From assembly GCF_000331305.1 (NCBI RefSeq), contig NZ_KB217481.1, positions 94,765-158,764 of the forward strand: DNA of 64,000 nucleotides, in the 5' to 3' direction. The DNA is from Calothrix sp. PCC 7103 (GTDB lineage Bacteria; Cyanobacteriota; Cyanobacteriia; Cyanobacteriales; Nostocaceae). The notes under the pieces are model-generated. The model saw nothing but the letters and a program-made list of their open reading frames with translations, had not been told where the DNA came from and did not search any database. Below, piece by piece: positions 9,296 through 36,680 of the stretch (the stretch's first letter is position 1; each line of letters opens with the position of its first letter). The position numbers were made by a program, and so were the translations under genes.

Positions 9296-9686
9296 GTGTG
9301 TTGCTTATGTTAAATGAGTATTCAGCGTCCTCGTGGAGTAATTGGTTGCTTGCCCTTTAAGTTCAAACTTTTTGTAAGGAACGTTTGTAGGAAATCTTTC
9401 TGCAAAGCTGCTGCCGGAACGGAAAGCCGACTCCGGAAGCTTGCTGGAAAGTACATCTTCATTTATCAGAGTCTATAAAAGCAACGCGCCTCGCGGTTTG
9501 TAGAAAAGTTAGTTGCAGGCGCCGCTTCCTAGAAGCGCATATAGTTAATAGTAAAAAAAATATTGTGCTTTCCTTGAATGGTATTACTATATATATAGGT
9601 TGAGAAAGTTGAGATGGGGACGTGGCGCCTGCACTTAATCTGCTAAACTTCTTTTAGTTATACGCTTCAAAAAAGTTGTGGCAGGT
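9296..9686 (+). promoter_or_regulatory. Leader region of parAB
   Basis: These 390 bases carry no gene that I can support. They include two GGCGCC copies and the palindrome CTATATATATAG at 9587-9598, about 90 bases before the parA start, close to where a promoter would lie. A GGCAGG ribosome site precedes the ATG at 9687. Confidence 0.4.
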
Positions 9687-10454
9687 ATGAAAAAAATAAT
9701 TGCGGTTGTAAATCAGGCAGGCGGTGCAGGGAAATCGACTTTAACTCAGAACCTGGGTTATCACTTGGCTTTAAAAAATAATCGGGTGTTGCTGATAGAT
9801 ATGGACCCACAGGCATCCTTAACTTCGTTTATGGGTTTAAATAAAAATGAGGTTACGGTTGAAAAAAATATTTACGGTGCCCTAACTGATAAGGCGCCTT
9901 TAACAGTGTGGGATGAGCCGATACATGGAATGCGGATTGTTCCAACTAATAAGCAATTAGCTTCAACCGAGATTGAAGTTATCCAGGACACGGTTGTAGA
10001 TAACAGAATGCGGTTGAGGCTTGCATTAGATCAAGTTACCGAAGATTTTGACTATATATTAATTGACTGTCCTCCCTCGCTAGGGTTGCTTAGTGTGATG
10101 AGTTTAATTGCAGCAACTCATGCAGTAGTCCCTTTGCAAACTCAATATAAATGTTACTTGGGTACTGACGAGCTGCTTGGTACTATCGCGCGTATTAAAA
10201 AAGCGGGGCATTCAGAATTAAAGATTGCCTGCATTGTTCCAATAATGTATGATGCGAGGAACAAACAGGATAAAGGAATATTGGAGGAAATAAAAAATCA
10301 GCTTGAGGGTAAGATACACGTAACAAAGCCAATACCTAAGTCTACTTATTTTGCAGATGCTTCCCAAGAGCATGTACCTTTCGCACTCTATAAAAAAGGG
10401 CATCCTACTGGTAAACTTCTGCAAGACATAGCCACCTATATAGAAAAAATATGA
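9687..10454 (+). CDS. parA: ParA-type partition ATPase
   Basis: The N-terminus MKKIIAVVNQAGGAGKSTLT is the deviant Walker A motif of ParA/MinD ATPases (G-G-x-G-K-S/T). It is followed by LLIDMDPQASLTSFMG (Walker A' region), DYILIDCPPSLGLLSV (Walker B) and VVPLQTQYKCYLG. About 255 residues, the usual length for a ParA without an extra N-terminal helix-turn-helix. ATG at 9687 is preferred over GTG at 9678 because GGCAGG then sits at ribosome-site distance. It overlaps parB by four bases, so the two are one operon. It would segregate the replicon by ATP-dependent binding to the nucleoid. Confidence 0.95.
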   Translation: MKKIIAVVNQAGGAGKSTLTQNLGYHLALKNNRVLLIDMDPQASLTSFMGLNKNEVTVEKNIYGALTDKAPLTVWDEPIHGMRIVPTNKQLASTEIEVIQDTVVDNRMRLRLALDQVTEDFDYILIDCPPSLGLLSVMSLIAATHAVVPLQTQYKCYLGTDELLGTIARIKKAGHSELKIACIVPIMYDARNKQDKGILEEIKNQLEGKIHVTKPIPKSTYFADASQEHVPFALYKKGHPTGKLLQDIATYIEKI

Positions 10455-11413
10455 AACGCGCGTTAGAAAAACTTTCAAATTTAGACGATTTAATTTTTCT
10501 TCAAGACTCAACACAAAATTTGAATGCAGGCGCCTCTCCTACGAAAATCCCAATCAACCAAATAAAGCGCACTGCTCAACAACCCAGACGTTATTTTGAT
10601 GAAGACAAGTTAGAGTCTCTGGCTAAAAGTATTTCTGATGTTGGACTGCTGGAGCCTATTGTTGTTCGAGAAGTTGATGCCCAAGCTTACGAGTTGATTG
10701 CTGGTGAACGGCGCCTGAGAGCATGTCAAAAATTGGGGCACGAATTTATCGCAGTCAATATAATTGAGTGCGATGAAGAGAAGGCGAGGCATATTCGTTT
10801 AATTGAAAACCTTCAGCGTGAGGACTTGAATGCTTACGAAGAAGCAATAAGCAGTCTTGATTTGCTAGCATTATTACTATCTATTGATGTGGAAGATGTG
10901 GTTAAACTGCTTTATTCCTTACATCATGCTTATAAAGGCGACACCACGAGTGTAACCGCCCAAAACATGTTGGGCAGTGACGAACTTAAAGTTATTGAAG
11001 AATTTTTTAACAAGTTAGGCAGGTTAAGTTGGCAATCTTTTGTGGCGACTCGCTTGCCGTTGCTAAATCTCAAAGACGACATAAAGCTTCTTTTACTTGA
11101 AGGTAAGTTAGAATTTTCAAAAGCTCTTGTTATATCCAGAGTAAAGGACGATACAGCAAGAGCAACGATAGCAAAACAAGCTATTGATAATAAAAAGTTG
11201 TCTGTTGCAAAAATCAAAGAACTAGTAAATTCTGCTAACGCCGGGGGGGCACCTGTTTTTTTAAAAGAAATTACAATTCCAGTGCCAAAGGAAGTTAGCA
11301 GGAGATTGAATAAAGTAAGCAGGCGCCTGAAAGATAATCCAATTTGGGACAAGCCACAAGAAGTGAATCAGCTAATTAAATATTTAGCTCAAATTGAAAA
11401 ATTGTTAGGCTAG
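10451..11413 (+). CDS. parB: ParB/Spo0J-type partition protein
   Basis: The 320-residue protein has an N-terminal ParB/Srx nuclease-fold domain: IPINQIKRTAQQPRRYFDED, SISDVGLLEPIVVRE, YELIAGERRLRACQKLG and RHIRLIENLQREDLNAYEEA (the CTPase motifs G-E-R-R and E-N-x-Q-R). A helix-turn-helix middle follows and a C-terminal helical domain ends the protein. In the usual place of the HTH the order is slightly unusual, with YKGDTTSVTAQNMLGSDELK. The start codon overlaps parA (ATGA). It should bind a centromere; the GATAC clusters are the obvious candidates. Confidence 0.93.
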   Translation: MKRALEKLSNLDDLIFLQDSTQNLNAGASPTKIPINQIKRTAQQPRRYFDEDKLESLAKSISDVGLLEPIVVREVDAQAYELIAGERRLRACQKLGHEFIAVNIIECDEEKARHIRLIENLQREDLNAYEEAISSLDLLALLLSIDVEDVVKLLYSLHHAYKGDTTSVTAQNMLGSDELKVIEEFFNKLGRLSWQSFVATRLPLLNLKDDIKLLLLEGKLEFSKALVISRVKDDTARATIAKQAIDNKKLSVAKIKELVNSANAGGAPVFLKEITIPVPKEVSRRLNKVSRRLKDNPIWDKPQEVNQLIKYLAQIEKLLG

Positions 11414-19633: not shown

Positions 19634-22600
19634 TTACTTCAATAACAAGTTTTTACGCTGTTCTTGCTTTGTGGCTTGATTCAACCAAAAATTCTTTTGC
19701 TGCTCGTTTAGGTTATTGATTGTAGGCGCCTCACCTTTCTTAGCTTGATACAGCACTTCCGATGAAGCGTTAACTATTTGTATAGTTTGAGTAGGCTGTA
19801 CAAAGTATATTGTAGAATTATTTAATTTAGCAGATTGAAGTTCTTTATTTTGATTGTCTGGATTCGCTTCAAGTCGTTTGAAGCATTCAGTTAGCATAAC
19901 CTGTTCCCACTTCTCGCGATTACTACTAACTCGTGGTTTGGTAGAATTATCTAAAGGAATATTTTGATTTTGCTCATTTTGTGTGGGTTGATTAGTATAA
20001 TTTTTGGTTATCTGTAAGGCTTTTTCATACCCTTCTACTAATGCTGCAATAAAAGGAGATTGATGTCCTTTACCCTCCCAAAAAGTATCTTGATTTTCGG
20101 TTACATAATGAGTACATTGCTCAAGCCATGCGGCGCCACCATTTTTTGTAACGGCTTCTAATAATTTAGGATGTTGTTCAAATTTTGCGGTTATAATCTG
20201 AGCCATCAAATCTCCTCTATCTTCATACGCCACTCCTTCTTTAAAATGTTGATAAGCTTGTTCCGCTGAAAAAAAGGGCGTACCTTTTGGTTTATCTTGC
20301 GTCCATTTTTCAGCTTTACACTCACCTGCTGGAGAAAAAGGATTATTTCTAAAAGATACGGGGTAATCACTTTTTATATTACCTAGCTCTTGTGATTTTA
20401 CAGTCGGGTTTGTTAAAGCGGCGCCAAGGCTAGATTTACTGCGTGTAGCTATATTTATAAGAGGTGCTATTTCTCTGGAGTTGTTATTTACTTTTATTTG
20501 TTGGTCGGTATATTTATTTATAACTTCGCTTCGATATTTTTGCAAGGTAGATTCTACTATAGTAGATACAGCCTTTTCAATACCAGGCGCCTTACTTTCA
20601 GTATTGCCAGCAACATTTAGTACCTCAATATTATTGTCTACAATAAATTTTAAAAGCTTTTGAGATGCTAATTCAGGATTATCGTAGACTTGTTTAGGTA
20701 TATGGAGGAGCAGTTTACCCATTCGGGCAGCATTTTCGGCAGTGTTTGAAGAACCTTTGTCAAAGTCGGGGTCAATGCTACCAAACACGACGGTGGCATC
20801 AGAATTTTGAATGTTGGCATTTGTTCTTATCATATAAGTATGCCCAATATTATTTCCTGCCTGACCTTCAGTTAAACCGTAGTCAGCAAGTTTGGGATTC
20901 TTGCCTTTTTCTGTAACCCAGCCAGCAGGGGCCGTACCTCCGGTTTCAAAACCCGCTTGCTTTGCTCCAACTAAAGCTCCCATGTCGGCGCCTGTCTGTC
21001 CTCCGCTAATAATTGTTGTAAGCGTAGCTGTCTCAGGTTTTTGTGGTTTGGCGGTAGAAGTAGAGTTGGGTATTATTTTTTTTACAGCTTTAGGTGCCGA
21101 TTTGGGCAACAATTCCGGTTCGCTAGACGATTCGTAAGTTTGCTGAGGTTTTTGGAATTGCTGAGTTTGAGGTTTAGATTGCTGAAGCTGGGGAGATATT
21201 ATTATTGCTTCAGGAACAGTAGCTTTAATAATGGCTTGGACTTGTTTCCAAGTTTGCTGACGCTCTGCCTGAGTTGCACCTCCAGCTAATCCAGAGCCTA
21301 GTTTTTCGGGTATGTAAACAGGTAGATTCTTCTTTTGGGCAAATTCTGCTACTTTTTCTAACCCATCACTAAGCCCTTTAAAATCAGTGTAGCGCCTATC
21401 AGTTCCATAACGGTCTTGCCCAGCTACGTTAGCAACAATCAACTGCGGATTTTCCTTAACTTCAACTAATTGAACATCCCCTAGCTTCCAATCCTGTTTT
21501 TGTAAATATTGATCTTTAACTTGAGGATATTTTTCTGCTATAGCAAGTGCAAGTCCGGCGCCCATCTTGCCTTGGCAATTAACTTGTTGAACAATAATCC
21601 CACTTTCAACTTTTAGTAAGTCTGTTAAAGGTTGTTTAGGTTGTTGTTCAGTTATCTGGGTTTTGGGGGTAATTAATTGACCTAGCTCTAACTCCAAAGC
21701 GCGTGTGATAATCTTCGTGGTAGCTTCTTGAAGCCCAGGTGATCGACTTTCACGATTCCCAGCTACATTAATTGTTTGTATTTGATTTTCTTTAATAAAA
21801 TCAGATATTTTAATGGCTGCTGTTTTAGGTTCATTTAAGGCTTCTTTCAAATTTATATGCAGGCAAGGTTTATCCTGCCCTTGAGCTAGTTGTATAGTCT
21901 TATAAGTTCCTGGATTATTAGCTGGGTCGGCATTACCTAAAACTAGCGTGCCATCAGATTCAAGAATATTGAGTTGAGTTCTTGCAATGTAAGTCTTTCC
22001 TATACTATCAAATTTTTTACCTTCTTCTAGACCAAATGATTCGAGCAGTTTTTTGTTATTTATATGAGATTTACCACCATTACTTAAATCTTCCATTAAC
22101 CAACCACCAGGCGCAGTTCCTCCTGTCGGCAGTCCATAATCTCTTGCAGCTATTAAGGCGCCAAGGTCAGCACCAGTTTGTCCACCAGAAATAATTTTCT
22201 CTAAAGTGCTTTTATGCGGGCTTGGCGCCTCTTGAAGTTGCAAGGCTTCTGGTTTAATTTGGATGTTTTCTTGTGCTGATGGTTCAGGTGCTTGTTGCTG
22301 TTGTGCAAAAGACGTAGTTTTAGTATTTTCAGAATGATTGGCTATTGCAATGCCATTTATGCGTACAAAATCATACCCTTTTTCTTGCAGGTAATCTACA
22401 ACTAATTTAGTACCTTCATTACTACCATCGCTGATAAGAAAGGAGCTTTTTGCTTCAATTGCCTTATCTAGTAAGGGCTGATAATTATCTATAAAATTCT
22501 GCTCTACTTTTTTCAACGATACGCCACGACGCACCTCGTTAATTTCGACCATTATAGTGTCTTCTTGAGAATACTCGCCAGTGTTAGCAAGTTCTCCCCA

Positions 22601-25600
22601 TGCAGCAGCATATTTTTTAATATCGCAGGCGGTTTTTGCTGATAAAGCTGATTGCCCTATAAACTGAGTGGCAAGCAAAGCCATCTGTATTTGTAGACTA
22701 TGCGATTCTTGGGTTATTCCAACAGCTTCAAGGTTTAATAATGGATTAGCCTTTTTAGGTACTACTCCGGCGCCGGAGTCACTATCAGCAATATTTTCTA
22801 AACTAGTTTTTATAACTTGCAGTTTCTCTCCTGCTTCGGGTTGTTTTAACATTTTATTTTGGTTATTGATGTATATCTCGCACAGCTTTTCAAGATACTC
22901 GTTCGTGAATTGCTGCTGATTATCTAATTGGGGTAAACTATTAATACTTGCTTGCAATGCAGTTATTTTTTCATTATAACTTGTATATCCTTCTTCTATA
23001 CTAACATCTACGGGTGTTCCAAAGTTGGCTATAAGTTCTTTACGAATAGAATCGCGCGTATAAAATTCTTGCACAACCAATGTAGATATTCCATCCACAC
23101 TATCTACTGCTGGTTTTATCCCTTTATCATTTAGCCAGAGAGCGGCTATTTCGGCATCTGCATTACTTAAAGTTAACCCCCAAGCAGGCGCCGCTTTTTC
23201 GTTTCCTCCATCTTCTATAAACTCTTGTTCTGGGTTTATATAATAAACGCCAAGTTCAGGATTACTTAATTTTTCAAGGGTAACTTCAGGAGGAGTTGCA
23301 TCTAAGACTCGCCCAAAATTAGCAATTAATTCTAGCTTTGCGGTTTCCGTCAAACTTCTTGGATCTATTGCTATTACTTCTGCTTTTAAGCTTTGCTCTA
23401 GCGGCGAAAGCTCTGAAATGTGGTCAGTGACGGCGCCTCTTCTATTTAGCCAGCTATTAATGTTATTAGTATGTTGTTGATCGCATGTAATATAAACAGC
23501 ATCGCGGTATTCTGTTTTTTCTCCGTTTGTATATGCATGGCGCCTGCTTTCTGACAAGATAGGCTGTATTGTTGTGTCTATATAATCCTGATGCGTAAGT
23601 ATTGGCTGACTTTCACGCTGTATCCATACTTTCGGGTACTCAACTGTATTAGGGTCTATTGTAATAAGTGCGGCTGAAGGCGCCTTAGCGATTAAAGTAG
23701 CTTCAAAATTAAAGCCCTGCGGCTTAACTCCTAAATTACTTAAATTTTCTGTAACTTCTTTATGATTTTTGATTTCCCCTAAAACTTTATTGTCGGCTTC
23801 AACCACTGCCACCAGAACAGCTTTAGCTTTCGGGTTATTTCTTTCCGCAACTTTTGCTCTATACTCCAACCGTAGAGATTGATTTTCTGATGTAAGGTTT
23901 AAGCGTTCGTCTTGAGTATAATCAGAATAATTTTTGAAATTTCCAATTTGGATTATAGTTTCCTTTTTTGTAACCGCTTCAAAGGTAGCTACATCATGAA
24001 TTTGAACTTGAGCTTCGGCTTTAGTTCCAATAGGCAATTGTCCGGCGCCTTTAGAGATAAAACCAAGTCTTTTATCATTTATATATATTGCAGTGTTAAT
24101 GCTATTATTGTTTCCTTCTACATTTTCTGGTAAAAACTCATGTCTAATTTCCAATCTATGCTTTTTTGTAGAGTCAAAATTTTGAAGATAATGTTGATTT
24201 ATTTTTGAATTATTAATTTTGGTGACTTCTAGCGATGTTATTTGTAAGCTATGAAGTCTTTGCGTTACTTCAGGCGAGAATAATGCAGTACTTTTCCATA
24301 TCGTTCTATTATCTTTATTAAAACCCTGAGAATTAGAAGTATCAAAATTTTCTATATCAAATTCATTTTCATTTTCATTTTCATCTATGTAAATACTAGG
24401 TTTATTATTGCTTTTGTTTCCTTTATCTGAACCTTGCTGCACTTGGGTTTCTATTTTCCACATTGCCGCAGCAGCGCTTAAAGTAGAATATTGCCGTTGT
24501 CCAAGCTGCTCTAAAGTTTCTTTTATATAATTATTAGTTGTTGCTTTGATTGCATCTAAATTAGCTTCAGTTGCTACAGGAGTAATTGTAGCTTTCCATT
24601 TTAATGTACGATTCTTATCAGGATACTCTAACGATATGAATTTATCGTCACCGCCATTTCGTCTAATTTCTGATTGTTTTTTCTTAATTAACTCAATGTT
24701 TTCTAGTAAAGAAGTGTTAGTCAAAGTACCTATTTGTTTCCTAACAGGTTTAATCTCACCTCTTTCATTTTTTGTAGTAACAAGCTGACCTTCTTTATCT
24801 TGTATGCAAGCGGTTACTTTGAATTCTAGGTTTCTGCTTTTGTCATCTTTTATAAGCATTATATTTTGTAGCTCAGTCATATTTCTATAATCAAACTTTT
24901 CATAAGACTTTTCAGATACTGCTACAATTAACTTTTTACCTAGCGGGCTTTCAAGTTGCAAGTAAAAATCTGTTCTATCAGCTTCTGCAACTGCAATGTC
25001 TTGTTTTACAGTTCTTTGATAAGTAGCTAAGGCGCCGAGTCTATTACTACATTCAGCCATTAAACCTACTTTCTCGGTTTTCGCTTTTTGTGCATCAAAG
25101 CGTATAGCATATAGTTCTGATGGAACATCAACGTCTTGAAACAAATCTTTTAATTGATATACGGGTCTTTGCTTTAAATCGGTTTCTTTATAAGTAGCAT
25201 TAGTCAACTGAGCAAAATGATCAAGTACTGTATGGGTATCACTTCCCATTTCGGCGCCTTCTTTAAAGTACAATGTATCTTTGTTTCTATCCGCTAGCGG
25301 AAGAACAGGGCGCCAGCTTAATTGGCTCAGACATTCTAAAACTTTGTCTTTGTCACATCGTCGCGCACTTTTTTCACTTTGTACTTCAATTTCTAGCTGT
25401 TGAGCTAGGGTATTTACAATATCTCTAAAATATTTCCTGACTGAATTTAATACTTCAACTTTCTCTTGTTGTGTTAATGGGGGTGGCGCCTCTTCAGGAT
25501 ACTGAGCCATAAAATCGTAAATATCTTGCCGAATCAAACCCTGATTTAAGGCTTGAGATAAAACTTCTTGGTCACGAATAGCATTTTCAGAAGTAGGGCT

Positions 25601-27544
25601 TGCTGAGAAATTAATTCCTGTGGTTCTGATTCGGTAGTAATCGAGTTTACCCCACTCAGTATCCAATTCGTTTTGACTAAACTCTCTATCATGAAATTTA
25701 AAGAAGCTTTTAATATAATTATCTTGTACGTCATCGGGAAGATAATCTATTTCTTTTTCAAGCGCTATTGCGTGCATTGATTGGTTAGCAACAAAACCGA
25801 TAGAATTGCTTATACCTGCGAGCGCAACTTCTTCAAATGTTTCTTGGTCGTATTGAGATTTTGAGGGAGTTACAATTTTTTCGTAGCGTACTCCATCCTG
25901 TTGGAGGTACTTGACTTCGGCAATAAATCCATCAAAAGCTTCTTCGTACTGAGCTAACTTATTGAGATAAAATTGGTGCTGCCCTTCTTTATCTCCGGTA
26001 TACTCGCCATACCACTCTGAGTGTTGTTTGGCGTAACGATCACAAATTTCGCGTTTACTTACAAAAGCTGGACGATCTCCGTCTGTGTCAGCATTCAATG
26101 AATCGTAGGTTGCACGATTCATTTCTATTGTGCCTGGATGCACGCTATCTCCAGCAAGTCTATTATTTTTTAATACTCCTATAACGTTCGAGTTAGGGAC
26201 GGGAGAGCGATAAAAAGCAACCTCTTCACCGTCAGGTAAGTTCGCTATGCGTATTTCTCCATCAGCTAGCTTATTGTTAGTCATCATCATACCGTACTGA
26301 AATTCAATATATCTGCCTGTAGCGCAGTCTCTATATTGTTCTTTCATATACTTTTTAAGATGGTTCAAATCAGTAACATCAAAAACTTGAGCGTGGTTTT
26401 CTAGGTCAGTCTTAATCCGTGTATAAACTTTATTTTTTGATGCGACCTCATTAAATACTGCGGTTTTATCTTCTTGAGGTATATCTTGCAGTGAAAGTAA
26501 TTTGTATTTTTCCTGCAATACCATGTCTACTTTTTGCTTAATCCGGCGTTCTTCGCTTTGTATGTAGTCCCAAGCAATTTTACGAGTGTCTTCCTGTATA
26601 CTGTGCAGTTCCTTAAGCCTGTCTTCAACAATCATGGAAGCAAAATTTCTACCTGAGTCAGGTAAGCAGTTCCAAAACTGGGCGCCTGTCGAAGTGTGTC
26701 CATAAGTCAGGTTAAACTCCTTTTCGGCTCTGCTAGGTTTAAGGAGATTTGGTTTAAAATCGGCTCTCTCTAATTCTTCAATAGAGTATTGCGATATATT
26801 TTCTCGTGCAGCATAGGAAGTGGCGCCTAAATCAACATCCAAAGTGTAACTACCTAGCTTTACTTTGGTTTCCGCGCTTTTACGACCTTTACCAAGTTGG
26901 TCTGTGCTAAGTATTAAATCGTAACCATAGGTATTTTCTTCAGGTACAAGGGTTCCTTTGAGTAAGCAAGTGTCAGGAAATCCTGCTTCTTTTTGGCTAA
27001 ATATAAGACCGCGCGTTTGAAACTGGCTATTTTCAAATCCTGCACTAGAAGCAAAGGCTTTTGATATCCTACCATCACCATCTCCCACAAGAGTTCTACC
27101 AATTTCAGGTGGTAAGACACCTGCTGATTCTCCTGTTTCCCCATCAACTACCAACACCCTTAAATCTTTGTATTCCTCTATGCCAACTTCAGCACAATCA
27201 GTAAATAAGTTAGAACCGTATTGTGCGGCATAAAATTCTTCGTCAAAAATTTCTATCCGTATATCTTTAGCTGCTTCTCTGTCTACACTTGCAAAGTAAA
27301 ATCTATCCCGTGAAGAAGCTATTAACTTTTTGTCAGGTGCCTGCGATAAGTCATCTTTGTTTGTAAATTTTTCGTAAACGGCGCCTATATAAAATTGTAT
27401 ATCCTGATGCGAATCCGGGTACATCTTTTTTATAAGCGCTTCCATAACGCAGCTACTAATTGTTTCTGTTAAAGCTTCTTCTGTGCCTTCTATTATAGTT
27501 GGTTGGTTGTTAATCGTATTAAAGTGTGATAGTGTAATAGCCAT
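19634..27544 (-). CDS. Giant multidomain protein: two-barrel RNA-polymerase-like region, SLOG-type, macro and NADAR domains
   Basis: This single frame codes 2636 residues. Residues 150-200 (GDGDGRISKAFASS, then FQTRG and LLKGTLV) resemble the first barrel of RNA-dependent/YonO-type RNA polymerases. Residues 445-495 (YRSPVPNSN, then SLNADTDGDRPAF) match the second barrel, with D486, D488 and D490 in the place of the catalytic D-x-D-G-D. Residues about 850-1750 are unassigned, with two loose repeats around ELIANFG and an acidic stretch near 1055. Residues 1780-1948 and 2175-2335 are two copies of the putative molybdenum-carrier (SLOG) domain (IISGGQTGADLGAL, NVAGNRESRSPG). Residues 1975-2115 form a macro domain (QQVNCQGKMGAGLALAI, LGSGLAGG). 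Residues 2390-2510 form a NADAR domain (NPFSPAGE, FFSAEQAYQHF, WEGKGHQS). Its 20 or so GGCGCC copies show long residence. Confidence 0.75.
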   Translation of the reverse strand: MAITLSHFNTINNQPTIIEGTEEALTETISSCVMEALIKKMYPDSHQDIQFYIGAVYEKFTNKDDLSQAPDKKLIASSRDRFYFASVDREAAKDIRIEIFDEEFYAAQYGSNLFTDCAEVGIEEYKDLRVLVVDGETGESAGVLPPEIGRTLVGDGDGRISKAFASSAGFENSQFQTRGLIFSQKEAGFPDTCLLKGTLVPEENTYGYDLILSTDQLGKGRKSAETKVKLGSYTLDVDLGATSYAARENISQYSIEELERADFKPNLLKPSRAEKEFNLTYGHTSTGAQFWNCLPDSGRNFASMIVEDRLKELHSIQEDTRKIAWDYIQSEERRIKQKVDMVLQEKYKLLSLQDIPQEDKTAVFNEVASKNKVYTRIKTDLENHAQVFDVTDLNHLKKYMKEQYRDCATGRYIEFQYGMMMTNNKLADGEIRIANLPDGEEVAFYRSPVPNSNVIGVLKNNRLAGDSVHPGTIEMNRATYDSLNADTDGDRPAFVSKREICDRYAKQHSEWYGEYTGDKEGQHQFYLNKLAQYEEAFDGFIAEVKYLQQDGVRYEKIVTPSKSQYDQETFEEVALAGISNSIGFVANQSMHAIALEKEIDYLPDDVQDNYIKSFFKFHDREFSQNELDTEWGKLDYYRIRTTGINFSASPTSENAIRDQEVLSQALNQGLIRQDIYDFMAQYPEEAPPPLTQQEKVEVLNSVRKYFRDIVNTLAQQLEIEVQSEKSARRCDKDKVLECLSQLSWRPVLPLADRNKDTLYFKEGAEMGSDTHTVLDHFAQLTNATYKETDLKQRPVYQLKDLFQDVDVPSELYAIRFDAQKAKTEKVGLMAECSNRLGALATYQRTVKQDIAVAEADRTDFYLQLESPLGKKLIVAVSEKSYEKFDYRNMTELQNIMLIKDDKSRNLEFKVTACIQDKEGQLVTTKNERGEIKPVRKQIGTLTNTSLLENIELIKKKQSEIRRNGGDDKFISLEYPDKNRTLKWKATITPVATEANLDAIKATTNNYIKETLEQLGQRQYSTLSAAAAMWKIETQVQQGSDKGNKSNNKPSIYIDENENENEFDIENFDTSNSQGFNKDNRTIWKSTALFSPEVTQRLHSLQITSLEVTKINNSKINQHYLQNFDSTKKHRLEIRHEFLPENVEGNNNSINTAIYINDKRLGFISKGAGQLPIGTKAEAQVQIHDVATFEAVTKKETIIQIGNFKNYSDYTQDERLNLTSENQSLRLEYRAKVAERNNPKAKAVLVAVVEADNKVLGEIKNHKEVTENLSNLGVKPQGFNFEATLIAKAPSAALITIDPNTVEYPKVWIQRESQPILTHQDYIDTTIQPILSESRRHAYTNGEKTEYRDAVYITCDQQHTNNINSWLNRRGAVTDHISELSPLEQSLKAEVIAIDPRSLTETAKLELIANFGRVLDATPPEVTLEKLSNPELGVYYINPEQEFIEDGGNEKAAPAWGLTLSNADAEIAALWLNDKGIKPAVDSVDGISTLVVQEFYTRDSIRKELIANFGTPVDVSIEEGYTSYNEKITALQASINSLPQLDNQQQFTNEYLEKLCEIYINNQNKMLKQPEAGEKLQVIKTSLENIADSDSGAGVVPKKANPLLNLEAVGITQESHSLQIQMALLATQFIGQSALSAKTACDIKKYAAAWGELANTGEYSQEDTIMVEINEVRRGVSLKKVEQNFIDNYQPLLDKAIEAKSSFLISDGSNEGTKLVVDYLQEKGYDFVRINGIAIANHSENTKTTSFAQQQQAPEPSAQENIQIKPEALQLQEAPSPHKSTLEKIISGGQTGADLGALIAARDYGLPTGGTAPGGWLMEDLSNGGKSHINNKKLLESFGLEEGKKFDSIGKTYIARTQLNILESDGTLVLGNADPANNPGTYKTIQLAQGQDKPCLHINLKEALNEPKTAAIKISDFIKENQIQTINVAGNRESRSPGLQEATTKIITRALELELGQLITPKTQITEQQPKQPLTDLLKVESGIIVQQVNCQGKMGAGLALAIAEKYPQVKDQYLQKQDWKLGDVQLVEVKENPQLIVANVAGQDRYGTDRRYTDFKGLSDGLEKVAEFAQKKNLPVYIPEKLGSGLAGGATQAERQQTWKQVQAIIKATVPEAIIISPQLQQSKPQTQQFQKPQQTYESSSEPELLPKSAPKAVKKIIPNSTSTAKPQKPETATLTTIISGGQTGADMGALVGAKQAGFETGGTAPAGWVTEKGKNPKLADYGLTEGQAGNNIGHTYMIRTNANIQNSDATVVFGSIDPDFDKGSSNTAENAARMGKLLLHIPKQVYDNPELASQKLLKFIVDNNIEVLNVAGNTESKAPGIEKAVSTIVESTLQKYRSEVINKYTDQQIKVNNNSREIAPLINIATRSKSSLGAALTNPTVKSQELGNIKSDYPVSFRNNPFSPAGECKAEKWTQDKPKGTPFFSAEQAYQHFKEGVAYEDRGDLMAQIITAKFEQHPKLLEAVTKNGGAAWLEQCTHYVTENQDTFWEGKGHQSPFIAALVEGYEKALQITKNYTNQPTQNEQNQNIPLDNSTKPRVSSNREKWEQVMLTECFKRLEANPDNQNKELQSAKLNNSTIYFVQPTQTIQIVNASSEVLYQAKKGEAPTINNLNEQQKNFWLNQATKQEQRKNLLLK

Positions 27545-27923: not shown

Positions 27924-27983
27924 TGAACAAGTCAAGATTTGAGTTACGCTGTTTGTAGGGGAACAATATAAAACGTTTCTATA

Positions 27984-28916
27984 TTATGCTTTGTTTTCGT
28001 TTTGTATGAAAGATAAAAGCAATACATTCCAAACAAGCAATGGTTTTACATTTAGCTGTAGGTGCCTATAAGCTTTATCTATATTTTGTAAAGCGCTTGT
28101 AAATTTCTTGCTTTTGTAGAACTGATAAGATAAATATTTCAATAACCAAAGTTGTGTTAGCTTGGGCAAGTTACTCGCTTGTTCTGCAAAGTGTAGACAC
28201 TCCCAGACAGTTTTTGGGAAATAACTGTAATTAGTTTCAAACGCATTATTAATAATTTTTAGATGATTGATTGCTTTAAGGGCGGCGCCGGGACTGCCAT
28301 CTGCAAAGTCTAATACTTCCTTATATTCATAGATATCTGTATTTGTAGAATTTAAAACTAACTCTACCTGTTTTAGTGATAAAGGTTTGAAGGGCAAAAC
28401 AGAGCATCGGCTTTTTATAGTTGGAAGAATTACTTCTTCGTTTGAAGAGACTAATATAATGGTCGAACGTTCTGGTTCTTCTAAAGTTTTTAAGAAAGCA
28501 TTAGCACTTATTGTAGGCATCCGGTCAACGTCTTTAATAATCACTACCTTCCTTTCAGATTTTATTGGCGCCTTACCTATAAACGACATTAAGTTGCGTA
28601 CTTGCTCCACCCGAATTACAGGGTTTTTGAATTCTACTCCTTTATCTTGCACTTCCTTTTCGGTCAGCATCTGCCCTTCATGTAAGGTCGTTGGCTCAAC
28701 CTCCAAGTAATCTGGATGATTGATCAAGTTGGAGGAAGTAGCTCTAAGTAGTGACTGAGCAAATAATTGCGCGGTAAGGGTTTTACCTACGCCATCTCTT
28801 CCTACAAATAAGTAAGCAGGCGCCACTAACTCTTGCTCAATAACTTTAGTTAAACTAGTCTTTATTTTATCGTGCCCGATTAATGTTTCAAATTTTGTAT
28901 CTTTTATAGTTGGCAT
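27984..28916 (-). CDS. holB: DNA polymerase III delta-prime-like clamp-loader subunit
   Basis: The 310-residue protein has an AAA+ clamp-loader fold. FETLIGHDKIKTSLTKVIEQ opens it; GRDGVGKT (about residues 39-46) is the Walker A motif; KVVIIKDVDRM is the Walker B region, with D-V-D in place of D-E; ANAFLKTLEEPERSTIILVS is sensor 1, and PTIKSRCSVLPFKPL carries the S-R-C arginine motif. The four zinc cysteines of typical delta-prime are absent. It overlaps the delta gene by 13 bases. Together with DnaX at 34415 it would load the sliding clamp at a plasmid fork. Confidence 0.85.
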   Translation of the reverse strand: MPTIKDTKFETLIGHDKIKTSLTKVIEQELVAPAYLFVGRDGVGKTLTAQLFAQSLLRATSSNLINHPDYLEVEPTTLHEGQMLTEKEVQDKGVEFKNPVIRVEQVRNLMSFIGKAPIKSERKVVIIKDVDRMPTISANAFLKTLEEPERSTIILVSSNEEVILPTIKSRCSVLPFKPLSLKQVELVLNSTNTDIYEYKEVLDFADGSPGAALKAINHLKIINNAFETNYSYFPKTVWECLHFAEQASNLPKLTQLWLLKYLSYQFYKSKKFTSALQNIDKAYRHLQLNVKPLLVWNVLLLSFIQNENKA

Positions 28917-29833
28917 ATTTTTATAAGAAAGGGGATTATTTCAATTTCGGCGCTTGACTTCACAGCTAAATCAAGCTCTGCAAGAATTTCAATTATTTTT
29001 ACTAGTCGTGCAAATTTTATCTGCTCAACCTCCTTTTTGAGATAGTAAAGGCGGTTGGAGTTAGTGATACTGCACAACGCAAGAACTTTACTGTCCTCAC
29101 ATTTTTCTTCAATTCCGGCTCTAACATTTAGCCAAGTCAGGAATTGAGTAGTAATAATTGCACTTATTTTAACGGGATGCTCATTACTCTCGATTAACCC
29201 TCTATATATAGTTACTGCATTCTCGGTTCTTCCATGCAGCAAAGCATCAGCTAATTGGAAGCAACTGTTATTGTTATTTTCCACTAACTCGTCAACTGCT
29301 TCCTTGGTAATCAGGCGCCCTGAAGTATATGAGTCGAGTTTGTGCAATTCTGAGATTAATCGACTAGTATTGTGTCCTGTTTTATCCACAAGCGCGCGCA
29401 TTGCTTCTTTATCTATATCAATGTTCTCTTCCTGGGCGAGCTTTTGGGCTAAATCTATAAATTGCTTAGTCTGCCATTCTGGGATAAGCGTATATTCTTT
29501 TATTTCGGCGCCACTGCTCAATATATTCTTTACAGCTTTCAACCTGCGGTCTGGATTACTGACGCAACGCACAACCATAATATTTTGGCCATCCCCAGTC
29601 TGACTTTTATTGATTGTCTCCCAATCCTCTTTACTCAGCTTTTCTTGCAACAGTACAACAACTTTACGCCCAAATAATCCTAGAGTTGAGTACTGACCTG
29701 CCGCAGCTTCCGTACTGCTAGTGTTAGAAGTGCTTAAATACTGAGTACCTTCAGATAAAAGTTTATTTTTAATTTTCTCAATGTGGCGGGTTTGTAAAAA
29801 CTCGTCTTCTCCATACAAGATGTGTATAGGCAT
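28904..29833 (-). CDS. holA: DNA polymerase III delta-like clamp-loader subunit
   Basis: The N-terminus MPIHILYGEDEFLQTRHIEK is the hallmark of delta (Y-G-x-D-x-x-L), followed by LFGRKVVVLLQEKL, the region that contacts the clamp. The middle (VDKTGHNTSRLISELHKLD) matches the G-x-D-x-x-x-L-x-x-E-L-x-K-L motif, and the C-terminal helical collar starts at FQLADALLHGRTENA. Length (309) is close to normal (about 330). It overlaps the delta-prime gene in one operon. A second clamp loader on a plasmid is unusual and points to a self-supplied replisome. Confidence 0.85.
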   Translation of the reverse strand: MPIHILYGEDEFLQTRHIEKIKNKLLSEGTQYLSTSNTSSTEAAAGQYSTLGLFGRKVVVLLQEKLSKEDWETINKSQTGDGQNIMVVRCVSNPDRRLKAVKNILSSGAEIKEYTLIPEWQTKQFIDLAQKLAQEENIDIDKEAMRALVDKTGHNTSRLISELHKLDSYTSGRLITKEAVDELVENNNNSCFQLADALLHGRTENAVTIYRGLIESNEHPVKISAIITTQFLTWLNVRAGIEEKCEDSKVLALCSITNSNRLYYLKKEVEQIKFARLVKIIEILAELDLAVKSSAEIEIIPFLIKICQL

Positions 29834-29862
29834 AATTTAAATCAGGTTTATTTTTTAATTTT

Positions 29863-30267: not shown

Positions 30268-30292
30268 TCGGAGATTGTTCAGCTCCTTGCTT

Positions 30293-30629
30293 CGTCCAGT
30301 AAAACTTGTATATCTATATTATACAAATTGTCTGGACGCTCTTATATTGTCCAGGGTGTCCAGGTTTTAAGAGCGCTGTCCAAATAGCCTGTCCAGGGTG
30401 TCCAATTTGTCCAGAGTAACTTTTAAGATTGAGAAATTAATGCGATTAGGCGCCTAAAATTTTAGTAACTATAATTCCATTATTCTAAAAAGTTCCAATT
30501 CTTCAATGGACAGGGTGAACAGGGTGAACAGGGTGAACAGGGTGAATAGGGTGGATAGTCCTACTACATAAGGGTTTGAGCAATTTAAGGGTGGGTGGAC
30601 AGTTTTGGACAGCTTTAAAAAAGTGGACA
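30293..30629. repeat. TGTCCAGGGTG iterons and 9-bp tandem repeats
   Basis: TGTCCAG/GTCCAGGGTGTCCA words repeat between 30293 and 30425. On the opposite sense, GGACAGGGTG followed by AACAGGGTG three times and AATAGGGTG form a head-to-tail 9-bp array at 30508-30557. TGGACA recurs at 30595-30629. Both orientations share the core ACAGGGTG / TGTCC, so one protein could bind the whole block. Confidence 0.7.
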
Positions 30630-32625: not shown

Positions 32626-32658
32626 TTTTAATAAAGAAACGATGTGTATTATATATAT

Positions 32659-34425
32659 TTACGCTTTCTCTGCCCAAGACTTGCAAATGGCAGCATCGAC
32701 GACACAAGGTATGTGGCGTAAAAAAGTAGAGCCGGCTTGTTGCATCAACTCTACTACAAGGTTTCTCGTTTCTACTGCATGGGCATGAGGAACTTCGACA
32801 ACTATTTCATCATGAACAAGGGCGATGATGCAAGCGTCATATTTTATAAGAGGCGCCCATAATAACGAGACAGCGAGTTTTGTTATATCGGCGTTAAGTC
32901 CTTGGACGGGAGTGTTGACAGCTTCGGTGAAAGGCGCCGGGTAGCTCCACTTTCGGATACGGCCTGAAAGGGTTCGGACGATTTTAGTATTTTGACTTTT
33001 GATTTGTTTGTGCCATTCAAGAAGACCAGGAAATCGTTTAAAAAACTTCGCGCTTATTTCTTCTGCTTCTTTCTGAGCAATAGCAACACCGTAGTTAGAA
33101 CGTGCGTAAACTACAAGGCTAGCAGGCATCATGCCATACACGAGTCCGAAATTGACAGGTTTTGCGAGTCTTCTATCTTCTTTGGTAACTTGGTCGAGCG
33201 GTTTATCGAGTATCACACTTGCTGTAAGTGAGTGGATGTCGAGTCCTTGCTGATATGCGAGTGTTAAGGTTTCGTCGCCGCATACTTCAGCAATAATCCG
33301 AAGCTCCATTTGGGAGTAGTCAGCGACGATTAGGTCGTAACCTTCTTCGGGTACAAACAATGATCTAAATTTTGTATTATTAGGAATTTGCTGGAGTGGC
33401 GGGTTGCGTACACTCATCCGTCCAGTCGCGGCGCCGATCTGAAAAACCGAAGTATGAATCCTGCCTGTTTTAGGGTTAATGAATCTTTCTAACTTGTTAA
33501 GATACTTGGTTAAATAATCGTTAGCCTTGCGGTAGTCTACGAATTTTTGGATTAGCTCGTTTTGACCTATATATATAGATAAATGATCTTTGTCTGTGCT
33601 GGTGAGCGGTACGCCAAGTAGGTTAAATGCCTTTTTAACTTGGTGGTGGCTATTTAAGTTAATCTTGGTTTTGTACTCACTGGGGAATAAAGGTAAAGTT
33701 GTGCTATTGCTGACGTCATCAAGTTGTAAACTATTTTCCAACTCAGCTTTTAATTTTTTTTTTAATTCGCTGTACTCTTTTTGTAAGACCTTGAGTTGAG
33801 GCAAATCGAGCTTCATGCCTTTAAATTCAAGCATTGCGGCGCCTGTTAAGCAACCAAACTCAATGTCGCGCGCTCTTTCAAGTTTTAAGTTTTTGATTTT
33901 TTTGCTTAACTCACGTTCAAGTGGCAGCAAAACCAAAGCATCTTCCGCAGCATAATCAAGCTGTTCGGAAGTTAACTTGGGCACAGACCAGTTGCTATCT
34001 TGTTCTGTTTTATCAAGTTCAATTCCTAGGTGCCTATGGGTAACAACTTTAAGGCTGTGCGTTAAACCTAGGCCGTTGTCAACTAAGATTGATGCAAGCT
34101 GAGTGTCGAAATATGGTGGGCTAACTGGTATTCCGGCGCCCCACAGCATTTGGATATCAAATATACCGTTATGAAATATTTTAGTTATATGTTCAGAAGC
34201 GAGTATTTTAATTAGTAAATCGGTAACTTCGGTTTTAAACAGGTCAATTATAAGCGTTGGTTCTGACTCGCAGGAAATTTGAAGTAATCTGATTTTATTA
34301 GTGTGTGGGCACAACCCTGTAGTTTCGGTATCTATCGCAATTAGGTTGTGGAAGGCCACATTTTCAAGATGGGTGTCTAAATCTAAGGTGTTAACTATAT
34401 ATATATAGTTATTTTTACTGTTCAT
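32659..34425 (-). CDS. Family A DNA polymerase with 3'-5' exonuclease domain
   Basis: The 588-residue protein lacks the 5' nuclease of chromosomal Pol I. The proofreading domain shows IAIDTETTGL (D32, E34), IFHNGIFDIQML and LDYAAEDALVLLPLE. The polymerase domain shows ATGRMSVRNPPLQQIPN, motif A VADYSQMELRIIAEV, motif B RRLAKPVNFGLVYG and motif C IALVHDEIVVEV, all complete. This is the phage/plasmid type of replicative family A polymerase. It overlaps dnaX by 11 bases and is the last gene of the primase-dnaX-polymerase unit. Two in-gene TA palindromes code for Y-I-Y-I and S-I-Y-I. Confidence 0.93.
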   Translation of the reverse strand: MNSKNNYIYIVNTLDLDTHLENVAFHNLIAIDTETTGLCPHTNKIRLLQISCESEPTLIIDLFKTEVTDLLIKILASEHITKIFHNGIFDIQMLWGAGIPVSPPYFDTQLASILVDNGLGLTHSLKVVTHRHLGIELDKTEQDSNWSVPKLTSEQLDYAAEDALVLLPLERELSKKIKNLKLERARDIEFGCLTGAAMLEFKGMKLDLPQLKVLQKEYSELKKKLKAELENSLQLDDVSNSTTLPLFPSEYKTKINLNSHHQVKKAFNLLGVPLTSTDKDHLSIYIGQNELIQKFVDYRKANDYLTKYLNKLERFINPKTGRIHTSVFQIGAATGRMSVRNPPLQQIPNNTKFRSLFVPEEGYDLIVADYSQMELRIIAEVCGDETLTLAYQQGLDIHSLTASVILDKPLDQVTKEDRRLAKPVNFGLVYGMMPASLVVYARSNYGVAIAQKEAEEISAKFFKRFPGLLEWHKQIKSQNTKIVRTLSGRIRKWSYPAPFTEAVNTPVQGLNADITKLAVSLLWAPLIKYDACIIALVHDEIVVEVPHAHAVETRNLVVELMQQAGSTFLRHIPCVVDAAICKSWAEKA

Positions 34426-35683
34426 TCATCTCACCCCTTATCAGTTCTACCCAGGCAACAGCTTTCTTACCATTCACAGCAAGTAAGTTATTCCACATAG
34501 TGGACACTTCCGTAATTGATTTTGCTGGTAATTTGGAATGTCCCCATTTAATAGCATCATCATAAGACTTCCAAGTTTTCCAAGGCGCCTCTTCTATCTC
34601 AAGTAGTGGAGTTACAGGCATCGTGACTTCGGGAGTTGAAGCAACTGCAACGACTTTACTACTGGTTTTGGTTGAATCTAGTAATTTTAAAAACCCAACT
34701 TCTAACCATATTTGAGGATTAACCGTAGATTTTAGCTGCTTCTGTATTTCAAGTAAATAATCTGAAATTCGCATCAACTTGTTTGTTTGGTCTGGCTCTG
34801 CTATTAGCTGGTCGGTTATAAATTTAGCAAACTGGTTTACAATAGTTTCTGGTTCTTTACCTTCAAAAGCTAAAAATCTTAGAGTAGTTAAAAGTTCTGT
34901 CTGGTTATTTGTAACCACAAGGTTATACACTTTTTGCAGTAATTCTTTTGAGACTTTGCCAGTTAGCTCATAAATATCGTCGGGAGTAATGGCGCCTGCC
35001 CTGAAAGACTGAGCTTGGTCTAACATGCAAAGCGCATCACGCAAACAACCGTCAGAAAAAGTAGCGATGATTTCAAGCGCTTTAGATTTAATATCTATAT
35101 TTTCAGTTTTGCTTATGGCGCTCAGATGCTGCACCATCGTGTCAGAGTTTACTCGTTTAAAGCTGAAATGTTGACAGCGAGAAGCTACTGACTCTTTAAC
35201 CTTATGTAGTTCAGTGGTGGCAAGTATAAATACTGCGTAGGCTGGTGGTTCTTCGATAGTCTTGAGCAAGGAGTTGAATGCCTCGCGCGTCAGCATATGC
35301 ACTTCATCGATTATGATAACTTTGTACTTGCCAGATATTGGGGCGTAATGCAATTTTTCAATTAATTTGGTTGCGTTCTCGACTCCACTGTTGGAGGCTG
35401 CGTCTATCTCAATAATATCGAGAGATGCTTGTTTCAAGGCTTCTGTACATGAAAAGCATAACCCACAAGGTTCGGCGCCGTTTACCCGATTGCTACAGTT
35501 TAAGGCAGCTGCAAAAATACGAGCTGTGGAAGTTTTACCACATCCACGTGGTCCATAGAATAAATAAGCTGGCGCCACTCTCTCTCGTTTAATCGCGTTG
35601 GACAGTGTTTGGGCTATAGGCGCCTGACCTACAAGATCAGAAAATTTAGCAGGTCTATATTTTTGATGAAAAGGAATGTACAT
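34415..35683 (-). CDS. dnaX: DNA polymerase III tau/gamma-like clamp-loader ATPase
   Basis: MYIPFHQKYRPAKFSDLVGQ is the standard opening of DnaX. Next come GPRGCGKTSTARIFAAALNC (Walker A), a cysteine cluster for zinc around residues 64-80 (EPCGLCFSC), KVIIIDEVHMLTREAFNSLL (Walker B), EPPAYAVFILATTELHKV (sensor 1) and SRCQHFSFKR. At 422 residues it has the gamma core and a short tail, without the long tau extension. It would form a loader with the HolA and HolB encoded at 28-29.8 kb. Ten bases separate it from the primase gene upstream. Confidence 0.92.
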   Translation of the reverse strand: MYIPFHQKYRPAKFSDLVGQAPIAQTLSNAIKRERVAPAYLFYGPRGCGKTSTARIFAAALNCSNRVNGAEPCGLCFSCTEALKQASLDIIEIDAASNSGVENATKLIEKLHYAPISGKYKVIIIDEVHMLTREAFNSLLKTIEEPPAYAVFILATTELHKVKESVASRCQHFSFKRVNSDTMVQHLSAISKTENIDIKSKALEIIATFSDGCLRDALCMLDQAQSFRAGAITPDDIYELTGKVSKELLQKVYNLVVTNNQTELLTTLRFLAFEGKEPETIVNQFAKFITDQLIAEPDQTNKLMRISDYLLEIQKQLKSTVNPQIWLEVGFLKLLDSTKTSSKVVAVASTPEVTMPVTPLLEIEEAPWKTWKSYDDAIKWGHSKLPAKSITEVSTMWNNLLAVNGKKAVAWVELIRGEMNEQ

Positions 35684-35693: not shown

Positions 35694-36629
35694 TTATGAT
35701 TTTTTTAAATAATAGTGCAGAGTTGATACTGTACGTCTATTGTTGTTGGCGAAGGTATCCCATTTATATTCGCATTCGCCTTCTTTAAATTTTGGTGATT
35801 TTTTACTCCAGTCAACCCATAAATTTAAGAAGCTGCTATCGAGAGCGTAAAGAGTTTTACCTACATCTATCCAAGAGTGGTAGTCGTCAGCAAACTTTAA
35901 ATTTATTTTTCCTAGAATATTTTCAATATCTTCGCGGCTATAATTTTTATCTATATATATATAGTTATTGTTCGAGATTGTTCGGAGCATTGCACGCTTT
36001 ATCCAATCAGGCGCCTGGGCTACATCTACATCAGTCGGGCTACAGTTATTTAGAAAAAAGTAATTTCGTCCACTGGTATGCAGTGATGGAGGAAGAGTAG
36101 ACCCTAAACCGCTGCCGCGTAACTCTAATTTATCCTTTCCTATATGAAAAGTTAGAGACATCAGACTTTGCCCTAATTCCTTGTTTGTTTTAAATAACCT
36201 GTGGGCGTGGTGGGGTGTACCCGATGAATAACTTATAGTTGGAGGCATTAAATCGAGTGCAAATCTATATAACTCGCTGCTGGTAATCCCTTCTAAGTCA
36301 TCATTGCTGGCACCAGTGGCAAGTTGAACTAATTTTTTATAGCCTCCAATTCCATCAAAATCGGCAGCTATTATAAATTCTTGGTCGTTTAACCCGCAAA
36401 CTAAAGCTATGCCATTAGGAACTATCAGTTTACCTCCATATTTAGATTGAATTTTGATTCGACCATTTGAACTAAGTTCTTCTTTCAACTGATTAGGTAA
36501 AAAGCAGTCAGTATTCCAGTTTTTACCTACTGGATTTTTGTTCATCGTCGGTGTCAGGCGCCAGTGCTGGGGAAGTATATCAAGGGTTTCTAGTATTTGT
36601 TGTATTTGTTGTATTTGTGATTTTATCAT
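35694..36629 (-). CDS. Primase-polymerase (prim-pol) with PriCT-2-like domain
   Basis: Start set at ATG 36629 (MIKSQIQQIQQIL); the longer GTG frame begins inside a hairpin. The first 220 residues fit the bifunctional primase/polymerase fold: WRLTPTMNKNPVGKNW (binding loop), FIIAADFDGIGG with the acidic D-x-D, YSSGTPHHAHRLF with the catalytic histidine, KLELRGSGLGSTLPPSLH. The last 90 residues (DIENILGKINLKFADDYHSW, LWVDWSKKSPKFKEGE, KWDTF) are a PriCT-2-type domain that usually links to a helicase such as VapE. No helicase is attached here; the VapE relics are at 15 kb. Confidence 0.8.
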   Translation of the reverse strand: MIKSQIQQIQQILETLDILPQHWRLTPTMNKNPVGKNWNTDCFLPNQLKEELSSNGRIKIQSKYGGKLIVPNGIALVCGLNDQEFIIAADFDGIGGYKKLVQLATGASNDDLEGITSSELYRFALDLMPPTISYSSGTPHHAHRLFKTNKELGQSLMSLTFHIGKDKLELRGSGLGSTLPPSLHTSGRNYFFLNNCSPTDVDVAQAPDWIKRAMLRTISNNNYIYIDKNYSREDIENILGKINLKFADDYHSWIDVGKTLYALDSSFLNLWVDWSKKSPKFKEGECEYKWDTFANNNRRTVSTLHYYLKKS

Positions 36630-36641
36630 TTTACTGAAAAA

Positions 36642-36680
36642 CCTCACTTAGTTAATCTATTAATTAGATACTAAGCGAGG
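36642..36680 (-). promoter_or_regulatory. Attenuator-like hairpin covering the prim-pol ribosome site
   Basis: On the minus strand CCTCGCTTAGT pairs with ACTAAGTGAGG (36670-36680 with 36642-36652, one mismatch), followed by TTTTTC and, 13 bases after the stem, the ATG at 36629. The only ribosome-site-like bases (GTGAGG) lie in the downstream arm. It could stop transcripts from the DMP19-like gene upstream and limit primase translation. Confidence 0.5.

Follow-up and report, generated by a model that had tools for sequence, protein, structure and literature searches.

A giant cyanobacterial plasmid protein with a predicted single-chain RNA polymerase as its first third

The cyanobacterium Calothrix sp. 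PCC 7103 carries a plasmid gene for a giant protein of 2636 amino acids, the first third of which is predicted to have the build of an entire RNA-synthesising enzyme in one chain, a reading supported by structure modelling and sequence comparison. The gene (19634..27544, minus strand) is an open reading frame with an ATG start and no internal stop, and encodes this polymerase head followed by a modular tail. It lies in the 64,000-nucleotide window analysed here (positions 94,765 to 158,764 of contig NZ_KB217481.1; coordinates below are those of the window unless another record is named), which is part of a contig of 321,658 bases, C10, in a genome of 11.58 Mb and 12 contigs. Our results support kinship of the head with a phage polymerase and with the polymerases that plants and fungi use in RNA silencing, and the domains of the tail look able, from their sequences, to handle ADP-ribose marks. 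Cyanobacterial plasmids of this kind may make RNA on their own DNA, as transcripts or as primers. The usual assumption is that bacterial plasmids rely on the RNA polymerase of the host. Were the family active, near-autonomy in gene expression would follow for large cyanobacterial plasmids, some of which also encode a DNA polymerase, a clamp loader and a primase of their own. A broad bacterial group would then join a deep family of RNA polymerases, and through the tail transcription might be coupled to the clearing of defensive ADP-ribosylation from DNA.

Predicted fold of the head

The polymerase region comprises residues 1–830 (25055..27544, minus strand, as are all features of the protein given below), and an AlphaFold2 model, Foldseek searches and alignments agree on a two-barrel single-chain RNA polymerase; we regard this fold and homology as close to certain. 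The model covers residues 1–850 and was built from an alignment (A2) of the window protein and 69 relatives; of the 72 loci with long open reading frames, L042, L056 and L069 were omitted. It has a predicted local distance difference test score (pLDDT) of 80.1 and a predicted template-modelling score (pTM) of 0.81. Comparison with the PDB using Foldseek returned 614 matches at E ≤ 10; of these, 21 reach E ≤ 0.001, every one a single-chain two-barrel RNA polymerase. Maize RDR2 has the lowest E-value (1.0 × 10−8), and the set also includes QDE-1 of two fungi, P74 gp62, which we take to be an RNA polymerase, P32 gp64 and the virion RNA polymerase of the crAss-like phage phi14:2. The next ranks are held by designed and natural double-psi barrel domains, including 7dww, 7dvc, 7dbo and 7dg7 (root-mean-square deviation of 2.5–3.0 over 87–89 columns, E = 0.02–0.04, TM-score of 0.66–0.71 by target length), together with large subunits of multi-subunit RNA polymerases. 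A viral library gave 12 matches at E ≤ 0.001, the best being an annotated phage RNA-dependent RNA polymerase (E = 1.6 × 10−9).

A sequence-only reading of this DNA had proposed a two-barrel single-chain RNA polymerase and had named double-psi barrels as the expected structure. The barrels are predicted, and the proposal is supported by the model, by Foldseek and by the profile alignment with the phage enzyme YonO described below. That reading had assigned a polymerase-like character to 25900–27544, which corresponds to residues 1–548 only; the polymerase-like part reaches about residue 830, and the modular tail (two cpYpsA domains, a macro domain and a NADAR-like region) went unmentioned.

The best solved folds, QDE-1 (2j7n, 5fsw and 7y7r) and RDR2 (7w82), match at E-values of 1.0 × 10−8 to 3.3 × 10−6. 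They are unlike the head in that they serve eukaryotic RNA silencing, share only 9–13% identity with it and have no link to it by sequence search. Their position as the closest solved folds is what an RNA-dependent RNA polymerase would predict, one whose double-stranded product would serve silencing or the amplification of plasmid transcripts, and 4 of the 36 listed phage relatives of YonO carry that annotation. However, YonO, the characterised relative that aligns by sequence, is DNA-dependent according to sections of PMC5467207, and no RNA-silencing partner was recognised among the annotated neighbours, where no search was aimed at Argonaute or Dicer; we consider an RNA-dependent enzyme improbable. 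The fold matches to the phi14:2 virion RNA polymerase (6vr4), P74 gp62 (8f5m) and P32 gp64 (8f72) have E-values of 2.5 × 10−6 to 3.6 × 10−5. These are virion or phage proteins, whereas tblastn searches of 50,697 phage records, made with the window head and with a member of a stand-alone branch of the family (below), returned no match.

Relationship to YonO and RpoC1

YonO of the Bacillus phage SPbeta/SPBc2 (L142) is described in PMC5467207 as a processive DNA-dependent RNA polymerase that loses its activity when the triad is mutated. It resembles the head in being a single chain of 839 amino acids, about the length of the head, with the same order of motifs from DGxG to DxxK. It differs in being a phage gene without a tail or plasmid context, and the relation is visible only by profile–profile comparison. 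With hhalign, alignment A2 matched the YonO alignment at 91.4% (E = 8.9 × 10−7), and a three-branch alignment of the family (A5) did so at 95.4% (E = 1.7 × 10−8). The latter consists of the window protein, 8 plasmid-type relatives and 12 of 18 distant regions, with L196, L201, L205, L209, L210 and L211 omitted. All 14 controls remained at or below 0.5%: reversed YonO at 0.0–0.1%, reversed RpoC1 at 0.2% and 12 unrelated families, which were clusters of neighbouring genes, at no more than 0.5%. The motifs shared with YonO follow the order Y, DGxG, R, KG, K, Q, RSP, DxDGD, IGxxxN and DxxK. The order and spacing that had been read from the letters as those of a two-barrel enzyme are borne out by this alignment, which is in register with clean controls.

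The comparison with RpoC (beta-prime), also suggested at that stage, found the correct loop: RpoC1 matched at DxDGD with 25.7–29.7% (best E = 5.6 × 10−4), more weakly than YonO, and the window protein has NADTDGD where RpoC1 has NADFDGD. RpoC1 is unlike the head in belonging to a multi-subunit enzyme, and the host rpoC1 and rpoB genes are on another contig, C7. A multi-subunit RNA polymerase was rejected as the identity of the head, which is a single chain with no RNA_pol Pfam match; a T7-like single-subunit RNA polymerase was also rejected, there being no palm-type or RNA_pol Pfam match and the fold being that of the two-barrel enzymes.

Catalytic motifs and conservation

The first barrel spans residues ~120–245 (26810..27187), with limits drawn from the strands of the model. 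It contains GDGDGRIS (residues 154–161; 27062..27085), which aligns with TDGCGMML of YonO, and the stretch from FQTRG (residues 175–179) to KGT (residues 196–198; together 26951..27022), in which Q176, R178, K196, G197 and T198 are invariant. K219-G220 (26885..26890) supplies a second invariant lysine; the two basic residues of this barrel, K196 and K219, align with K271 and the SQFK lysine of YonO. The second barrel, delimited from the model at residues ~410–500 (26045..26317), contains RSPVPNSN (residues 446–453; 26186..26209), aligned with RSP of YonO, and DSLNADTDGDRPAF (residues 481–494; 26063..26104). The latter carries the catalytic-type triad D486/D488/D490, which is recognised by sequence, by conservation and by its alignment with the DNDGD loop of YonO. 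In the model, the three aspartates lie in a single loop between a predicted helix (477–482) and a strand (493–496). Further along are IGFVAN (residues 582–587; 25784..25801), aligned with IGEYSN, and QSEKSA (residues 722–727; 25364..25381; VDxxKSA in the family), which aligns with IDFAKT and includes the invariant K725. The motifs quoted in the sequence-only reading (GDGDGRIS, FQTRG, KG, RSPVPNSN and DSLNADTDGDRPAF) stand at the residues that it gave.

D-x-D-G-D is present in all 72 sufficiently complete open reading frames from 80 GTDB loci (the other 8 loci have no such frame). In A2, the residues G154, D155, Q176, R178, K196-G197-T198, P201, K219-G220, R446, P448, N451, N453, D486, D488, G489, D490 and K562 are identical in all 70 rows. 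In the three-branch alignment, where mean column identity is 25% and identities to the window protein fall as low as 19%, the residues Q176, R178, K196, G197, T198, K219, G220, P448, N460, D486, D488, G489, D490, K562, G583 and K725 are unchanged in all 21 rows. As 72 of 72 frames carry the motif and the triad is invariant in both alignments, D-x-D-G-D is present beyond chance. The core is under purifying selection, with ω of 0.117–0.240 in 14 pairs, chosen as the most similar among 407 that were eligible; the tails gave 0.108–0.534.

These data bear on whether the barrels might be what is left of a polymerase, inactive or structural, that now gives the conflict modules of the tail a scaffold or a head for binding nucleic acid. 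The family includes giant modular proteins with varied tails, and some relatives are broken, including a remnant with a stop on contig C12 of the same genome and a copy in G212 with many stops. The invariance of the catalytic positions and the purifying selection argue against a relic, as do stand-alone relatives of ~870–910 amino acids that lack a tail, and we consider it very improbable. The head is, we predict, likely an active RNA polymerase.

Distribution of the family

The head belongs to a large cyanobacterial family that has no name in the libraries searched. Searched by tblastn with residues 1–850 as a single sequence, 72,556 plasmid records yielded 61 with a relative, and the 60 that were listed are all cyanobacterial. 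By typing, 29 of the 61 plasmids are conjugative, 13 mobilizable and 19 non-mobilizable. Trichormus variabilis ATCC 29413, a laboratory strain, has relatives on two plasmids, so the question of a plasmid polymerase is directly testable. Within the same taxonomic family, 132 of 217 genomes have a match. Across the phylum, the 70-row profile matched 38 of 386 genomes, which is a lower bound because no more than two candidates per genome were scored. The Calothrix genome itself contains six loci and one remnant. C12 has three of the loci and the 8.8-Mb contig C7 has two, one of these split over two frames; the sixth is the window copy, and the remnant is that with the stop on C12. Single-sequence scans of GTDB contigs and of viral contigs found no relatives. 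With an alignment (A1) as the query, the GTDB contigs yielded 162 relatives among 242 stretches and the viral contigs none. The 80 kept of these 162, all with cyanobacterial titles, form the set of loci used throughout, and 72 of them gave a long enough open reading frame.

Two distant branches were found, with profile E-values of 6.6 × 10−32 to 8 × 10−78. One comprises proteins of ~690–1130 amino acids with DFDGD in contexts such as HQADFDGDQLMVSPA. The other is mostly stand-alone, with proteins of ~870–910 amino acids (one of 1115), LGRDTDGDFIQLI-like loops and no tail. The stand-alone branch matched 51 plasmid records and the other branch 88; these sets overlap with each other and with the 61 above. 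A ‘Nostoc azollae’ 0708 plasmid (NC_014249.1, 29174–30142) matches the tail-type domains and is absent among the 60 listed of the 61 polymerase-matching records; this copy is perhaps a truncated relative in a symbiont.

A plasmid-borne family without a name invites comparison with the CyRepX replication proteins, which excerpts of PMC10899382 describe as plasmid-borne too, without Pfam domains and widespread in cyanobacteria. A 1121-amino-acid protein at pSYSX 27957–31322, taken as CyRepX1 from the coordinates in that source, nevertheless had no match above the inclusion threshold to four profiles of the polymerase family. Homology to Slr6031 was rejected at the sequence level by this profile search, and we give a Rep protein of this type almost no credence.

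Published work already mentions homologues of RNA polymerase in the mobile elements of cyanobacteria, as uncharacterised proteins. Plasmid giants that combine a polymerase with ADP-ribose modules were not found in the literature searched, which did not include two older papers of likely relevance, Ruprich-Robert and Thuriaux 2010 and Iyer and Aravind 2012, reportedly the source for YonO-like proteins in cyanobacteria. According to PMC5467207, many firmicutes and cyanobacteria have YonO-like proteins. Single-subunit two-barrel RNA polymerases are listed for phages and fungal cytoplasmic plasmids, not for bacterial plasmids, in a table of polymerase families from 2020 (PMC7281927).

Tail domains

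Beyond the head, residues 851–1585 (22790..24994) form a region partly shared with other family members, as seen by comparison with relatives, and residues 1586–1750 (22295..22789) an unnamed domain present in 13 of 72 long proteins. This set of 72, in which the window protein is counted here and below, consists of 66 proteins from GTDB loci, 5 from plasmid records and the window protein; L094 and L160 are from the same plasmid. Two cpYpsA (SLOG) domains follow, at residues 1784–1949 (21698..22195) and ~2177–2340 (20525..21016). PF12694 matches in two stretches (E = 4.2 × 10−60; 202 bits against a cut-off of 26.2), and the limits of the second domain, with ISGGQTGADMGAL at 2179, were set by eye. 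The window protein alone among the 72 has SLOG domains. Between them lies a DarG-like macro domain (residues 1975–2134; 21143..21622; phrog_335, E = 1.7 × 10−23). NF048014 (DarG) matches this macro part only (36.7 bits, E = 2.9 × 10−9), far under its full-length cut-off of 250 bits, and PF01661 (Macro) scores 17.2 bits (E = 0.0049), under its cut-off of 22. A NADAR-like region (residues 2346–2530; 19955..20509) is suggested by eye and by weak matches; it is 45–60% identical in 12 other family giants and has no relative in the viral contigs. A Pfam scan of 10 other long tails, of 66, gave no match over the cut-off.

Excerpts of PMC11125620 report that NADARs reverse the ADP-ribosylation of guanine and DarG that of thymidine, and suggest that phage NADARs shield phage DNA from host transferases. 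The window tail resembles the systems described there in having a DarG-like macro domain and, on a weak assignment, a NADAR-like region, and differs in that these modules are fused to a polymerase. DarT, the transferase of such systems, is encoded in the same genome on C7 and C9 and as a fragment on C12, and in 27 of 99 genomes of the same taxonomic family. In at least 2 of the 80 loci (L060 and L063), one of them with an interrupted polymerase gene, DarT and macro genes are no more than 10 kb from the polymerase, a link that is anecdotal because the loci were scanned by single-sequence search only. Given the families of the tail domains and the presence of DarT in these genomes and near at least two loci, a counter-ADP-ribosylation role is therefore plausible at most, and we propose it tentatively, as a possibility that we would sooner doubt than accept. 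Two arrangements may be recorded here. L216 (1847–8012) encodes a protein of 1840 amino acids with a DarT domain near its C terminus (E = 4.5 × 10−25), followed by a stand-alone macro-domain gene, ~3 kb from a family polymerase. L217 (57–1800) has a pair of DarT and macro (DarG-like) genes ~6.6 kb from an interrupted family polymerase gene.

The protein also resembles the polyvalent proteins of PMC5512222, which are giant, multidomain, borne by mobile elements and equipped with conflict-type domains. The window protein is likewise a multidomain conflict-type protein on a mobile element; conjugation genes on its own plasmid were searched for as a relaxase only. That paper notes a paucity of polyvalent proteins in cyanobacteria, and a search of its text for terms turned up neither YonO nor barrel.

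Genomic setting

The polymerase gene follows a set of replication genes on the same strand: those for a clamp-loader delta-prime type protein (HolB; 27984..28916; PF13177, E = 4.9 × 10−35), a clamp-loader delta subunit (HolA; 28904..29833; PF21694, E = 1.1 × 10−14), a family A DNA polymerase with 3′–5′ exonuclease (PolA; 32659..34425; PF00476 and PF01612), a DnaX-type clamp loader (34415..35683; PF13177 and PF22608) and a PrimPol-type primase (35694..36647; PF09250 and PF08707). The span from 27984 to 36647 thus holds most of a plasmid replisome on one strand. A ParA and ParB partition pair lies at 9678..11413 on the plus strand (domain annotation), and a Mob_Pre relaxase gene is on the same contig (C10:213394).

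This setting suggests that the head might instead be a plasmid primase or replication-initiation polymerase, supplying RNA primers, or DNA extension like that of archaeal PolD, for the nearby family A polymerase and clamp loader. Its gene shares the strand of the HolB, HolA, PolA, DnaX and PrimPol genes, and at least 8 of the 12 best listed plasmids of the branch with proteins of ~690–1130 amino acids (88 records) are among the 25 listed of 33 that have the same type of DNA polymerase. On those 8 plasmids, however, the two genes are more than 20 kb apart, and their co-occurrence may reflect a shared plasmid type. A PrimPol primase is already encoded in the window, and the 21 significant PDB matches are to RNA polymerases, not to PolD. 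In stretches of at most 10 kb on either side of the 80 relatives, HolB was found once, DnaX once, PolA and HolA never and PrimPol three times. A conserved replication operon was rejected on this ground, adjacency recurring in only 0–3 of 80 loci. We consider a primase or initiation polymerase rather unlikely, although the least unlikely of the alternatives.

Genes that do recur are of another kind. Of 81 loci (the 80 relatives and the window; one representative of each neighbour cluster was annotated), 52 have a 380-amino-acid protein that is actin/ParM-like by eye and without a Pfam match, 37 have a ParA-like ATPase with a weak Pfam match, 36 a DUF6753 protein and 29 a Mob_Pre relaxase. The surroundings of the family are thus those of a plasmid backbone.

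Proposed role

We think it probable that the head is a complete RNA polymerase of the YonO and eukaryotic RNA-dependent RNA polymerase type, carried by a mobilizable cyanobacterial plasmid and copying plasmid DNA into RNA. The first barrel (DGxG...FQxR...KG...K219G) would provide basic residues and the second (RSP...D486-x-D488-G-D490) the metal-binding aspartates, and the active site would be formed between both, as in YonO and QDE-1. Plasmid DNA would most likely be transcribed without the host polymerase, much as YonO would serve its phage. The tail would be an exchangeable set of modules tied to NAD and ADP-ribose. Judging from their families, the DarG-type macro domain and the NADAR-like domain may remove ADP-ribose attached to thymidine and guanine in the copied DNA, and the SLOG domains may bind nucleotide-type signals. 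We lean slightly towards plasmid transcription rather than priming as the main role; the PrimPol of the window is a separate gene that covers priming and was counted for transcription. More speculatively, and in our view unlikely as a whole, the family could be the own transcription system of these plasmids, a host-independent single-chain polymerase that in some cases is fused to ADP-ribosyl hydrolases clearing DarT-type marks from the template, perhaps in the recipient just after conjugation.

Several results weigh against this account. The polymerase region has no Pfam match over the cut-off in the window protein or in 15 members scanned, nor an NCBIfam match in the three proteins scanned, and a search of the PDB with the sequence profile found no relative (a single row, E = 1.6, a nuclear factor). 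TM-scores over the full length are low (0.26–0.37 by query for the 21 PDB matches); the similarity therefore concerns the catalytic domains, not the whole chain. The YonO alignment (A3) is thin, with six rows, one of which is truncated at the triad; it comprises YonO and 5 of 7 phage relatives, the unannotated L148 and L149 being omitted. Its profile found no match in the whole Calothrix genome, and the YonO and RpoC1 profiles align with each other at only 0.6% by hhalign. Two of the six loci in this genome are on the chromosome-size C7; the family is therefore frequent on plasmids but present on chromosome-size contigs too. The replication-gene setting of the window copy suits priming as well, and a search of 7- and 8-mers upstream of 28 window genes found no promoter-like motif. 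As for the tail, the NADAR assignment is weak by PF08719 (13.1 bits against a cut-off of 35.1, E = 0.6), by hhalign (7.2%) and by Foldseek, in which NADAR 8bau ranks first of 77 with an E-value of 1.5 for a model with a pLDDT of 67.9. Only 7 of the 72 long proteins have the macro domain (partly covered in L083) and 13 the NADAR-like region, and, unlike in DarTG systems, no DarT match was found on C10.

Other features of the window

Between the HolA and PolA genes, 29863–30267 encodes a 134-amino-acid protein with an EF-hand-like DSDFDHDGITLRDEF by eye and no Pfam match, which is near the polymerase in 8 of the 80 other loci. Farther away, 58177–63573 encodes a protein of 1798 amino acids that matches a helicase C-terminal domain and, weakly, an Eco57I methylase, and is reminiscent of the giant anti-restriction proteins of phages and plasmids. 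A DUF5131 protein (PF07505, E = 2.1 × 10−74), which we take to be of the phage Gp37/68-like family, is encoded at 5199–6068.

In the upstream regions of the 28 genes, only GGCGCCT stood out (9 of 28 genes; shuffle maximum of 7), and it is part of a window-wide palindrome. GGCGCC occurs 161 times in window positions 1–64000 against 2.9 expected from base composition, a 55-fold excess. The palindrome HIP1, GCGATCGC, occurs 0 times in the window, and GGCGCC is a HIP-like iterated palindrome of another sequence.

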